Of a stretch of 64,000 bases of DNA, positions 30,199-54,605 are shown piece after piece. This stretch comes from Flavobacteriaceae bacterium (GTDB taxonomy: Bacteria > Bacteroidota > Bacteroidia > Flavobacteriales > Flavobacteriaceae). Both the position numbers and the translations under genes were made by a program. How positions within the stretch are numbered: position 1 is the first letter of the stretch; the number at the start of each line of letters is the position of its first letter. The stretch lies in assembly GCA_021648265.1 (NCBI GenBank), contig JAKITD010000002.1, positions 1 to 64,000 on the forward strand, given 5' to 3'. The notes under the pieces were generated by a model that was not told the origin of the DNA, ran no database searches, and saw only the letters and a list, made by a program, of their open reading frames with translations.

Positions 30199-30899
30199 TT
30201 TTTAAATGAATATTTGAATATCCAAAGTAAAATTTTAACGCCTGCAAATATAGCACCTTTTACAGTGCCAGAAACTTTTGAAACACCAATTCTATTTCGA
30301 TAATTCAAAGGGATTTCAATATACGAATACTTCTTTTTTAATGCTTTTAACTGCATCTCTACTGTCCATCCGTATGTTTTGTCTTCCATATTTAGAGCCA
30401 ATAATTTGTCATATTTTATTGCTCTAAAAGGGCCTAAATCTGTAAAAGTAGATTTAAAAAACAGTTTCATTAAGCTAGTTGCTAACCAATTTCCGAAAAT
30501 TTGTGGTTTTGTCATCGACCCTAATTCTCGTAATTCTGAAACTCTTGCTCCAATTACAAAATCGATATCATTTTCAATAATAGGTTGTACAATTTTAGTA
30601 AGTTCTTCGGGGTAATCGCTATAATCGCCATCTAAAAAGACAACGATTTCTGGTTTTGTCCCGAGGCTTCGGGATTGTTCAGAAATGTATTTCATTCCTT
30701 TTAAACAAGCATATCCATAACCTTTTTGTGTTTCGGTAAGAACGGTAGCTCCTGCTTTTTTGGCAACTTTAACAGTATTATCTGAAGAGTTGTTATTCAC
30801 TACAATTATTTCCGAAACTATTTCAGGAATTGCAGCAATTACTAAACCAATGGAAGCTTCTTCATTAAATGCGGGGATGATGACTTTTATTAGTGTCAT
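30195..30899 (-). CDS. GT2 family glycosyltransferase (dolichol-phosphate mannosyltransferase/glucosyltransferase-like)
   Basis: KVIIPAFNEEASIGLVIAAIP, VVNNNSSDNT, IVVFLDGDYSDYPEEL, PLNYRNRIGVSKVSGT. Confidence 0.93.
   Translation of the reverse strand: MTLIKVIIPAFNEEASIGLVIAAIPEIVSEIIVVNNNSSDNTVKVAKKAGATVLTETQKGYGYACLKGMKYISEQSRSLGTKPEIVVFLDGDYSDYPEELTKIVQPIIENDIDFVIGARVSELRELGSMTKPQIFGNWLATSLMKLFFKSTFTDLGPFRAIKYDKLLALNMEDKTYGWTVEMQLKALKKKYSYIEIPLNYRNRIGVSKVSGTVKGAIFAGVKILLWIFKYSFKK
30659..30674. repeat. TCCCGAGGCTTCGGGA palindrome inside the GT2 CDS
   Basis: Near-perfect palindrome encoding the extra SRSLGT segment before KPEIVVFLDGDYSD. Confidence 0.6.
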
Positions 30900-51329: not shown

Positions 51330-53228
51330 ATGAAAAAAATATTTTCCACCTTTTTAATTGCATTTTTAGTAGTAGGATTCAGTTTTGCACAGGCAGATTC
51401 CGATTCTCTAAAAACAACAAAAATAGAATCAAAAGCAGGTACTATTGAAGCATCCATATATTTAACGAAAATTGTAAATGATAAAGTTCCTGTAACCATA
51501 ATTCCAGAACGTTTTAAACAAGATACTGTAATCTACAGATTGCCAAAAGTAATTCCAGGAACTTATGCTATTAGTGACTTCGGAAACTTTATCGACGACT
51601 TTAAAGCTTATGATAAAAAAGGAAGAGAACTGGATTTTACCAGAAAAGATGAAAATTCATGGATGATTCCAAATGCAACAAAACTTAGAAAAATCACTTA
51701 TTTGGTAAATGACACCTTCGATGTGGAAAATACGGAAGGAATTGCAACACCCTTTTCTCCTTCAGGAACCAATATAGAAGAAGATAATTTTCTGTTGAAT
51801 CTACACGGATTTATTGGTTATTTTGAAGGATTTCAGAACAGCCAATACCAATTAGATATTACTTCCAATCCAAAATTTAACAGTGCTTCTGCATTGCAAA
51901 TGGTAGGTGAGGAGTTTTCTAAAGACAGTCTAACGGCAACACAGCATTATTATGCACCACGTTATTTTGATATTACGGACAACCCGATGATGTATGGCGA
52001 TTTTGAAATAGAAGAGTTTCAAGTAGGAAATATTAAAGTATATTTAAGTGTGTATTCACCTAATAAAATTTATAAAGCGATAGATTTTAAAGAGACTATG
52101 TTTGAAATGATGAAAGCACAAAAAGCGTATTTGGGTGACATTAATTCGACTGCTCGGTATGATATTTTCTTGTATTTATCTGAAATGAACGAAACTTCAC
52201 CAAGCGGTTTTGGAGCTTTGGAACACCATACTTCAACCGTGGTCGTAATGCCAGAATCGATGCCAATAGAAGCCTTGAAAAAAAGCATGGTCGATATTGT
52301 TTCCCACGAGTTTTTTCATATTGTAACTCCTTTGAGTATTCACTCAGAAGACGTTCATTATTTCGATTATTACGAACCTACTTTCTCAAAACATTTGTGG
52401 ATGTATGAAGGCGTAACCGAATATTTTGCCACTTTATTTCAGGTAGATCAAGGCTTGGTTTCCGAAGATGATTTTTATAATAAAATAATGAGTAAAATCC
52501 AAAATGCTTCGATGTATGATGATACGATGAGCTTTACTGAAATGAGTGAGAATGTTTTAATAAGTCCCTACCAAGAAAATTACGCCAATGTATATGAAAA
52601 AGGAGCATTAATAGGAATGTGTCTCGACATATTAATGCGAGAAGAAAGCGATGGGCAACGAGGAATTTTATCTTTAATGAAAGAATTATCTTTAAAATAT
52701 GGAGAAAATCAACCCTTTGATGATGAAGCGTTATTTACAATCATTGAAGAAATGACCTACCCTTCAATTGGAGAATTTTTTAAGACTTACGTAGTAGGAA
52801 GTACACCAATAAATTACAGTTATTATTTTGAAATAGTTGGTTTGGAGTTTTCAGAAGGACAAGTAGAAACCAACTACATCATGAATAATGGAGAGTTGAT
52901 TTTAGAACCTACTGCAAATGGGACCATTCGGTTTTTAGACTTAGTTTTAGAAAATAGTTTTTGGAAAGAGAACGGAGCATTGCCAAACGATGTGATTTTC
53001 GAAATCAACGGAACCAAAGTTACGATGGCAACTGCCGAACAAATCTTCACCGAAGTTTATATGTGGGAACCAGGACCAGAAGTTGAGGTAAAATTACTTC
53101 GTGGAGATGAAGAAATTATCATCAAAACCGAATTGACACAATCCTACACCAAAGGAAATGGATTGCAATCTGAAAAATATGCTTCGCCTGTAAAATTAGA
53201 AATTCGTGACTCTTGGTTAAAGGGGTAA
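51330..53228 (+). CDS. M61-family (glycyl aminopeptidase-type) metallopeptidase
   Basis: VSHEFFHIVTPLSIH (HEXXH-like), LWMYEGVTEYFATLF; ATG at 51330. Confidence 0.93.
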   Translation: MKKIFSTFLIAFLVVGFSFAQADSDSLKTTKIESKAGTIEASIYLTKIVNDKVPVTIIPERFKQDTVIYRLPKVIPGTYAISDFGNFIDDFKAYDKKGRELDFTRKDENSWMIPNATKLRKITYLVNDTFDVENTEGIATPFSPSGTNIEEDNFLLNLHGFIGYFEGFQNSQYQLDITSNPKFNSASALQMVGEEFSKDSLTATQHYYAPRYFDITDNPMMYGDFEIEEFQVGNIKVYLSVYSPNKIYKAIDFKETMFEMMKAQKAYLGDINSTARYDIFLYLSEMNETSPSGFGALEHHTSTVVVMPESMPIEALKKSMVDIVSHEFFHIVTPLSIHSEDVHYFDYYEPTFSKHLWMYEGVTEYFATLFQVDQGLVSEDDFYNKIMSKIQNASMYDDTMSFTEMSENVLISPYQENYANVYEKGALIGMCLDILMREESDGQRGILSLMKELSLKYGENQPFDDEALFTIIEEMTYPSIGEFFKTYVVGSTPINYSYYFEIVGLEFSEGQVETNYIMNNGELILEPTANGTIRFLDLVLENSFWKENGALPNDVIFEINGTKVTMATAEQIFTEVYMWEPGPEVEVKLLRGDEEIIIKTELTQSYTKGNGLQSEKYASPVKLEIRDSWLKG

Positions 53229-53279
53229 CTAAATTAGTAAAACAAAAAATTCCAAAACATAAAATTAAAAGAGGTTTTT

Positions 53280-53322
53280 ATGTGGTGCCTCCAACCCCGA
53301 CACTTCGGGGGAACTAGGGACA
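53280..53322 (-). repeat. Partial tRNA-Phe 3'-end duplicate interrupted by a CCCCGA-CACT-TCGGGG hairpin
   Basis: ATGTGGTGCCTCCAA (53280-53294) and GAACTAGGGACA (53311-53322) identical to 53655-53669 and 53675-53686 of the tRNA-Phe locus. Confidence 0.9.
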
Positions 53323-53601
53323 TTTTTTTGTTAAAATATCAGAAAGAATAGTAGGGTATTGAATTACTTTTTCAATAAACACTTTACTTTTCATACGTTT
53401 AATAAATTTTTCTAGAAAAACAGCTTTTTGTTTATTACTACATTGATAAGAAAGTTTTAAGTTCCAATCGTTTGCATTTTTAGTGAAATTAGTTTTAAAA
53501 TAATGATTGTTATGTTGTTGTAGTCTAATTTCAACATTTGGAGTTTCACCCACATAATATTTGTTTAGACTTGAAGAGTGTAGAATATAGATAAAGTGCA
53601 T
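53314..53601 (-). CDS. GIY-YIG nuclease-domain protein
   Basis: MHFIYILHSSSLNKYYVGETPNVEIRLQQHN...LEKFIKRMKS; ATG at 53601; the longer ORF to 53715 is translated tRNA sequence; stop codon lies inside the tRNA-like repeat. Confidence 0.9.
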   Translation of the reverse strand: MHFIYILHSSSLNKYYVGETPNVEIRLQQHNNHYFKTNFTKNANDWNLKLSYQCSNKQKAVFLEKFIKRMKSKVFIEKVIQYPTILSDILTKKCP

Positions 53602-53657
53602 AGTTATAAACTTATAGAAACCAAAAAATCCCCAAACAAAGTAAGGGGATATTAATG

Positions 53658-53730
53658 TGGTGCCTCCAAGAATCGAACTAGGGACACATGGATTTTCAGT
53701 CCATTGCTCTACCAACTGAGCTAAGGCACC
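53658..53730 (-). tRNA. tRNA-Phe (anticodon GAA)
   Basis: Minus strand GGTGCCTTAGCTCAGTTGGTAGAGCAATGGACTGAAAATCCATGTGTCCCTAGTTCGATTCTTGGAGGCACCA; 73 nt; CCA not encoded. Confidence 0.97.
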
Positions 53731-53873
53731 TGCTTTTAAGCGAGGGCAAATATAAACCTATTTTGGATTGTACAAAACAATTAATTAAAAAATATTTAAT
53801 TAAGATGGATTTAATATTCACTTAACAAGATGATATGATTTCAATTTGTATTTTTGGATTCTTAAGTTAATCT

Positions 53874-54605
53874 ATGAATTTAATAATAGACGTTGGAAAT
53901 ACCAATATTAAACTAGCTGTTTTTGATGAAAATGAGATAGTTGTAAAAAAAATCACATTTAAAAATGAATTTATTAAGGTTTTGGAAGAAATTTCAAAGG
54001 ATTATATTTCAATAAAAGATGTGATAGTTTCTTCGGTTGGAAATTTTTCAGAAGATGAACTTTTAATAATTAATAAGAGGTACAATTTGTTTGTGTTGAC
54101 AGATAAAGCTAAGATTCCTTTTAAAAATAAATATGCAACCCCCAAAACTTTAGGAGTAGACAGGATTGCCTTAGTTGCTTCAGCATCGTTTCAGTATCCT
54201 AATAAAAATGTATTGATTATTGATGTTGGAAGTTGTATTACTTATGATTTTTTATCATCAGAAAACAATTATTTAGGTGGAGCCATATCCCCAGGAATAG
54301 ATTTTCGTTATAAATCGTTACATGATTTTACCGATAAATTACCTTTATTAACACCAGAAATTCCTTCAAAATTAATTGGAAATTCAACAGAATTCTCGAT
54401 ACATATTGGTGTAATACAGAGTGTTGTGTTAGAAATTGACGGATATATATCATTGTATAAGGAAAGATATAAAGAATTAACAATAATTTTAACAGGAGGA
54501 GGTGTTCATTACTTGGTAGATAGCTTAAAAAATGACATCTTTGCGAACTCTAATTTTTTATTAGAAGGATTAAACTACTTATTAGAAAAAAATAATAAAT
54601 GTTAA
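53874..54605 (+). CDS. coaX: Type III pantothenate kinase
   Basis: LIIDVGNTNIKLAVF, TLGVDRIALVASA, LIIDVGSCITYDF, GGAISPGIDFRYKSLH, LTGGG. Confidence 0.95.
   Translation: MNLIIDVGNTNIKLAVFDENEIVVKKITFKNEFIKVLEEISKDYISIKDVIVSSVGNFSEDELLIINKRYNLFVLTDKAKIPFKNKYATPKTLGVDRIALVASASFQYPNKNVLIIDVGSCITYDFLSSENNYLGGAISPGIDFRYKSLHDFTDKLPLLTPEIPSKLIGNSTEFSIHIGVIQSVVLEIDGYISLYKERYKELTIILTGGGVHYLVDSLKNDIFANSNFLLEGLNYLLEKNNKC

Follow-up and report, generated by a model that had tools for sequence, protein, structure and literature searches.

GIY-YIG nuclease genes lodged within tRNA genes of Bacteroidota: a probable family of minimal, homing-like mobile elements

Introduction

Why should a gene for a small GIY-YIG nuclease lie between an intact tRNA-Phe gene and a second, hairpin-interrupted copy of the 3' end of the same tRNA? 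The question is raised by a locus in a 64,000-nucleotide stretch of DNA from a Flavobacteriaceae bacterium (contig JAKITD010000002.1), the whole of which is called the window below. The original prediction, made from the sequence alone, saw here a nuclease-encoding unit which inserts at a tRNA 3' end and regenerates it.

tRNA-integrating elements commonly regenerate the tRNA 3' end by means of a direct repeat. In classic homing, insertion destroys the nuclease target, so that the occupied allele is immune. The Neisseria Ssn protein is a GIY-YIG site-specific single-strand nuclease targeting dispersed palindromes (NTS, dRS3-like). Comparison of the window locus with its relatives leads us to regard it as, quite probably, a member of a family of minimal mobile elements (about 0.3-0.4 kb) that extends across the phylum and is homing-like in its behaviour; in this family the GIY-YIG nuclease would direct insertion into one tRNA arm.

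Results

Structure of the window locus

The unit was predicted to span roughly 375 bp and measures 375 bp. Its parts follow one another on the minus strand in the order tRNA-Phe, terminator-like hairpin, ORF, TGTCCCTAGTTC, CCCCGAAGTGTCGGGG, TTGGAGGCACCACAT:

53657..53730, minus strand: intact tRNA-Phe(GAA) (ARAGORN; Rfam RF00005)
53620..53650, minus strand: terminator-like hairpin (CCCC..GGGG and a T run) carried by the element between tRNA-Phe and the ORF (sequence; comparison with relatives in the genus)
53314..53601, minus strand: GIY-YIG nuclease ORF, 95 aa (PF01541, E=4e-12; alignment; fold model)
53311..53322, minus strand: short 5' tRNA piece TGTCCCTAGTTC, comprising the end of the variable loop and the 5' side of the T arm (sequence)
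53295..53310, minus strand: 16-nt palindrome CCCCGAAGTGTCGGGG, CCCCGA-AGTG-TCGGGG, in place of the T-loop GATTC (sequence)
53280..53294, minus strand: old tRNA-Phe 3' half TTGGAGGCACCACAT, left behind, tRNA positions 62-74 (sequence)
53242..53279, minus strand: what is probably the native terminator of the original tRNA-Phe, now decayed (by-eye reading against the empty loci L188 and L189)

ARAGORN recovers the predicted tRNA-Phe on the minus strand, with its boundary at 53657 and not at 53658, a difference of one base. The GIY-YIG ORF, the sole one of the unit, lies where it was expected, and its stop codon TAG (53316-53314) is indeed supplied by the tRNA repeat. The second, same-orientation copy of the tRNA 3' end also holds up on the sequence: both TGTCCCTAGTTC, which corresponds to tRNA positions 45-56 (derived from locus L082), and TTGGAGGCACCACAT are the same as in the intact tRNA-Phe, and only the five T-arm bases GATTC are swapped for the hairpin. 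The part of the intact gene from the T-loop to the 3' end (approximately 53657-53674) is presumably a replacement half borne by the element. The window element bears the T-stem letters of its host genus (CCTAG/CTTGG), and therefore vertical inheritance and gene conversion could make up a large share of its history.

The window genome (G000) also has a second, distant GIY-YIG gene of 82 aa (L003; G000:C12, 1501-2050) located directly 5' of tRNA-Arg(UCG). A 5'-truncated tRNA-Arg copy lies downstream and has another palindrome (CCTGCC..GGCAGG) in its anticodon arm. Behind tRNA-Cys of the same genome, a T-loop hairpin remnant without an ORF was found (L064; G000:C45:11398), which is perhaps a non-autonomous unit mobilised by the window nuclease.

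The nuclease

The PF01541 match of the window protein is over the cut-off, and the residues Y5, Y16, G18, R26 and E64 are conserved in the alignment. The structure model (pLDDT 90) has its best fold matches in UPF0213, Slx1 and I-TevI; their E-values are weak and the fold is GIY-YIG. The protein thus has the fold and the catalytic Tyr, Arg and Glu characteristic of the GIY-YIG superfamily, and shares them with UPF0213, Slx1 and the catalytic domain of I-TevI. Unlike these proteins, nucleases of the window type are stand-alone, 75-95 aa long, contain the FIKRMKS motif and have neither a RING nor a DNA-binding extension. With dN/dS of about 0.1 over nine pairs of relatives, the ORF is under purifying selection.

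Empty and occupied sites

Close relatives were expected to include empty sites, and presence/absence polymorphism was found both in the window genus and in a second genus. Within the window genus, G000 and G501 (L190) are occupied, and G493 (L188) and G498 (L189) are empty at the same syntenic position. G493 is 94% identical to the window over 344 bp and shares its downstream flank. In L188 and L189, tRNA-Phe is followed by a native terminator and then directly by the flank which lies behind the remnant in the window. The terminator behind tRNA-Phe in L190 resembles that of the window, whereas the empty L188 and L189 carry a different, native one. Window positions 53242..53279 lead into the flank common to L188 and L189; the flank matches, but the terminator itself has diverged, and it is too decayed to prove a terminator swap from the window locus alone. 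The element is absent from further relatives of the window (L191 and L193-L196).

The second genus is that of G154 (uncultured Maribacter records), where eight tRNA-Phe loci are comparable. L136 and L137 are empty, L132, L134, L135 and L138 are occupied, and L133 holds a decayed copy of the element. In L136 and L137 a native terminator (taaatccttactcc...gagt[a]aggattttttt) is located directly behind tRNA-Phe. In L132, L134 and L135 another terminator (aattaaaccctgcat..gcagggttttttg) stands behind the intact tRNA, and after it come the ORF, the short 5' piece, the hairpin and the old 3' half; a terminator of the native type appears only after the old 3' half (in L134 it is a mosaic). In the arrays of this genus, interior remnants lead into the element terminator and the last remnant into the native one.

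As the element terminator adjoins the intact tRNA and the host terminator lies past the remnant, insertion took place within the tRNA gene, with the element supplying a new 3' half, a terminator and the nuclease. Comparison of these sequences thus shows the element to sit inside the tRNA gene at one arm: the outer half of the gene is now element-supplied, and the original half, together with the host terminator, has become the hairpin-capped remnant. The tRNA-Phe sequence is identical across empty and occupied genomes, bar one N in L188 and normal between-species variation. The target is therefore regenerated, not destroyed, and arrays can grow. Immunity of occupied genomes through a mutated tRNA is ruled out by the same identity. 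Regeneration had been foreseen; the site, expected at the 3' end of the tRNA gene, is in fact within it. The model proposed at the outset also did not include a terminator brought by the element or a targeted arm that varies with the nuclease clade. For layouts of the upstream type (see below) two attempts yielded no clean empty site.

Distribution in Bacteroidota

Searching genome contigs with the window protein yielded 35 loci. Nearly all of them have the window layout at tRNA-Phe (in Maribacter, Flavobacterium, Psychroflexus, Aureibaculum, Mesonia, Moheibacter and others); the other targets are tRNA-Leu(UAA) at three loci and tRNA-Cys at one. Recurrence of the hairpin remnant in nearly all relatives is far beyond chance. 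Several of the 35 loci contain at least two units in tandem, and L019 additionally has remnants without an ORF. Several contigs stop within the element owing to its behaviour as a repeat.

A search profile built from 26 clade members matched 114 of 201 family genomes (E<=1e-6) and 130 of 297 phylum genomes (E<=1e-8). Among the best 30 loci of the family search, 27 have a tRNA gene within 1.5 kb flanks (binomial 1.5e-33, against an expectation of about 4%, a rough estimate assuming 40 tRNA genes per genome), and these tRNA-linked nucleases adjoin a partial copy of the neighbouring tRNA in which one arm holds a palindrome. Of 20 phylum hits with middling scores that were sampled later, 17 have a tRNA gene, always on the same strand and 0-330 bp away. 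Our detector of interrupted tRNA copies was positive at 81 of 112 nuclease loci and at 15 of 20 in the later sample, whereas tRNA loci lacking a nuclease gave 1 positive in 20, and loci whose flanks had been shuffled 10 in 240. The survey of small GIY-YIG genes suggested by the original prediction has revealed a superclade that is overwhelmingly tRNA-linked, with the hairpin remnant present. This outcome and the presence/absence polymorphism are both the opposite of what would have refuted that prediction. The profile also picks up more distant GIY-YIG proteins that have no neighbouring tRNA (L129, L130); linkage to tRNA genes is thus not uniform across the superfamily. IMG/VR, phage and plasmid collections gave no matches, and on this ground carriage by phages or plasmids is rejected.

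Counted over distinct nucleases, there are 87 loci covering 17 anticodon types and all tRNA arms, often as tandem arrays. The nuclease and the tRNA are on the same strand in all 87, and the ORF lies between the intact tRNA and the remnant in 73. Two layouts are seen. In the downstream layout (62 loci) the intact tRNA comes first, with the element terminator next to it, and the ORF, the short 5' piece, the palindrome and the old 3' half come after. The upstream layout (Arg, some Asn, Cys) opens with a promoter and the 5' half; a palindrome and a short 3' piece come next, and the ORF, a second promoter and the intact tRNA complete it. The two are mirror images of one plan, namely insertion at an arm with the element supplying the completing tRNA half, which for the upstream type is how the sequences appear to read.

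Tandem arrays comprise 2-8 units. Two of them, L114 (G176:C34) and L112 (G159:C1), comprise seven to eight units with a nuclease; the profile matches 18 times in G176, which may reflect a recent burst in that genome. At L099, L163, L169, L171 and L182 the tRNA remnants contain two or three palindromes in different arms. Such remnants are not explained by one insertion and count against the explanation that we favour. In the Val remnants (L103, L104, L105, L110) the anticodon stem is recoded to TCCCGA/TCGGGA and an anticodon-like loop is retained. ARAGORN names some of the Val remnants tRNA-Stop or tRNA-SeC, a likely annotation trap.

Nuclease clade and tRNA target

The nuclease tree is built on 95 rows with few columns, and many of its forks are open. 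On it, tRNA isotype changes 17 times, compared with 50.9 times for shuffled labels (shuffle minimum 45); with the Phe rows left out, the values are 16 and 38.3. The tRNA arm also clusters on the tree, with 15 changes versus 22.9 for shuffled labels (minimum 19). These comparisons of sequences show that nuclease clades track tRNA identity.

T-loop remnants matching GGTTC-YCCCGA-N4-TCGGGR are present in 7 of 8 genomes with a Phe-clade nuclease and in 4 of 193 without one (p=1e-9). The Phe-clade-positive genomes have ORF-less T-loop remnants at other tRNAs too (Cys, Val, Thr, Leu), which looks like the work of a single nuclease acting in trans on several T-loops.

The hairpin and dispersed palindromes

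At the 87 loci the palindrome has the core YCCCG..CGGGR in 66 cases, a near variant in 8 and another sequence in 13. Across 27 distinct 16-nt T-loop hairpins, 100% of stem cells are paired, and pairing is kept while the 4-nt loop varies. The stem covaries: double-sided changes number 12 compared with 3.6 after shuffling (0/500), all of them in the outer two pairs; invariance of the inner CGA/TCG is uninformative because the search pattern fixed GA/TC.

The window genome contains 63 dispersed 16-nt YCCCGA-N4-TCGGGR sequences with a variable loop (e.g., at window positions 30659-30674), and none of the reversed control. Dispersed palindromes are commoner in genomes with a Phe-clade nuclease (median 11 versus 1, p=3e-6), and the excess persists when T-loop remnants are subtracted (p=2e-5). 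Some occupied genomes are nearly devoid of them, with 2-3 copies in G150 and G154, which rules out that the palindrome is necessarily high-copy in its own genome. Near elements at L013, L016, L017 (about 2330-2360) and L044 (1501), the palindrome forms the loop of rho-independent terminators. Single terminator cases of this kind exist, but a general location of dispersed palindromes in the loops of other hairpins is rejected, as the 15 sites tested did not exceed shuffled flanks (376 of 1000 shuffles reached as high a value).

Discussion

Proposed mechanism

Each element would consist of a 75-95 aa GIY-YIG gene, a replacement tRNA segment that brings a terminator (or promoter) of its own, and a short tRNA piece of the opposite side capped by the YCCCGA...TCGGGR hairpin. 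We suppose that the nuclease makes the break or nick that begins insertion, where it may recognise the tRNA arm, the palindrome or both, and that the tRNA segments act as short homology arms for host recombination. The hairpin may stop the remnant from serving as a tRNA or a target, may be bound by the nuclease, or both. Arrays would arise by repeated use of the regenerated target. Since an intact, unmutated target beside an active gene would be self-attacked by a duplex cutter, the nuclease would probably act mainly on single-stranded or hairpin DNA, either during replication or on incoming DNA. Hairpins could be formed by the tRNA arms as well as by the remnant.

Alternative explanations

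The most serious alternative, which we consider possible though clearly less probable than a homing-like element, is that the GIY-YIG protein is a site-specific single-strand nuclease of the Ssn type whose cognate site is the palindrome. It would then be a modulator of host transformation or recombination, and its location at tRNA genes a by-product of recombination and not selfish homing. The presence of the YCCCG..CGGGR core in 66 of 87 loci irrespective of the tRNA fits this reading, as do the abundance of dispersed palindromes in the window genome and their excess in genomes with a Phe-clade nuclease; in Neisseria, a similar dispersed palindrome is the dRS3 repeat, ATTCCC(N8)GGGAAT (PMC3898611). 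Against it, the nuclease clades track tRNA identity, non-core palindromes occupy 13 loci, G150 and G154 are occupied with so few dispersed copies, and exact rebuilding of the tRNA would still require an account of insertion. That the nuclease is toxin-like, cleaving one tRNA as RNA, with the hairpin-bearing pseudo-tRNA as a resistant decoy or antitoxin RNA, is unlikely. Clade-to-tRNA specificity and the anticodon-like loop retained in the recoded Val remnants would suit it, but most remnants are truncated and lack one tRNA half, they gather mutations and extra palindromes, many arrays hold remnants without a nuclease, and the terminator swap between empty and occupied sites is a signature of insertion at the level of DNA.

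Tandem duplication or slippage confined to the tRNA locus, combined with chance insertion of a palindrome and with no mobile element involved, could produce arrays of near-identical units. We give it very little weight, as it leaves unexplained the phylum-wide recurrence with one specific nuclease family. Furthermore, a duplicated native tRNA end cannot yield a different terminator at the intact tRNA together with a native one in the distal position, so plain tandem duplication is ruled out by the polarity of the terminators at empty and occupied sites. Least credible of all is that the units are remains of an integrase-type tRNA-integrating element (att duplication) with the GIY-YIG gene as leftover cargo. 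Such elements typically regenerate the tRNA 3' end through a direct repeat, yet the units have no integrase and the GIY-YIG gene is the only one they have in common. In addition, insertion points are seen in the D, anticodon, variable and T arms, replacement affects 5' halves as well, and the units were not found in phage, plasmid and viral collections. A prophage or integrase remnant is ruled out, there being no integrase, all arms hit and insertion from both sides. A group I or II intron is likewise ruled out, since an Rfam scan of positions 53000-54000 (E<=1) found only the tRNA, which is contiguous.

Relation to known systems

Seen as a homing-like element, the window unit has the presence/absence polymorphism at one precise site that is expected of a homing endonuclease gene. 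If the target is the tRNA gene, insertion does not destroy it, as tRNA-Phe is intact and arrays build up at the same site. In the mitochondrial introns of Tremella a duplicated segment of the host gene is carried (PMC7315562). In free-standing GIY-YIG homing endonuclease genes and in such organellar introns, a small nuclease gene likewise enters a host gene with a replacement piece, and the old piece becomes a truncated copy. In contrast to those introns, which splice, there is no intron here, the tRNA target is regenerated unchanged, the hairpin cap is conserved and the units stack in tandem.

As in tRNA-integrating islands and prophages (integrase/att), insertion is at a tRNA gene, which element DNA restores; unlike them, the unit is sub-kilobase, lacks an integrase, uses any arm and leaves a hairpin-capped remnant. 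REP/RAYT systems similarly combine a nuclease-type gene with short hairpins that are also dispersed in the genome. There the enzyme is an HUH tyrosine transposase; here it is GIY-YIG, and insertion is fixed at tRNA arms.

The nearest functional lead is Neisseria Ssn with its dispersed palindromes. Ssn/NTS together with dRS3 likewise pair a small GIY-YIG protein with short dispersed palindromes having CCC..GGG arms. To our knowledge, Ssn is neither physically linked to tRNA genes nor divided into clades by tRNA, and it is not accompanied by grafted tRNA halves. Within the full-text literature (as distinct from preprints and subscription papers), our search returned no report of such elements, nor of a system with all of these features. 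In the 2006 phylogenomic paper on GIY-YIG proteins, the passages mentioning tRNA draw no link to tRNA genes.

Significance

On balance, we incline to the view that these units represent a new class of prokaryotic mobile elements found in a large part of Bacteroidota. Members of the class would insert within essential tRNA genes at clade-specific arms, graft on a tRNA half that has a promoter or terminator of its own, close off the discarded half with a conserved hairpin and re-use the regenerated site to form arrays, so that many tRNA genes would be partly element-replaced.

If this is true, it would account for the small, profile-matched GIY-YIG genes located beside tRNA genes in Bacteroidota, and a large uncharacterised nuclease family would gain both a function and a target. 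It would also mean that essential tRNA genes can be invaded by grafting, without an intron or an integrase. Roughly twelve nuclease clades occur naturally, and for each the predicted target, a single tRNA arm, can be read off, so that specificity is directly testable. Overall, the findings suggest a route for recombination of tRNA genes between species and provide a candidate enzyme for the short palindromes found in these genomes.
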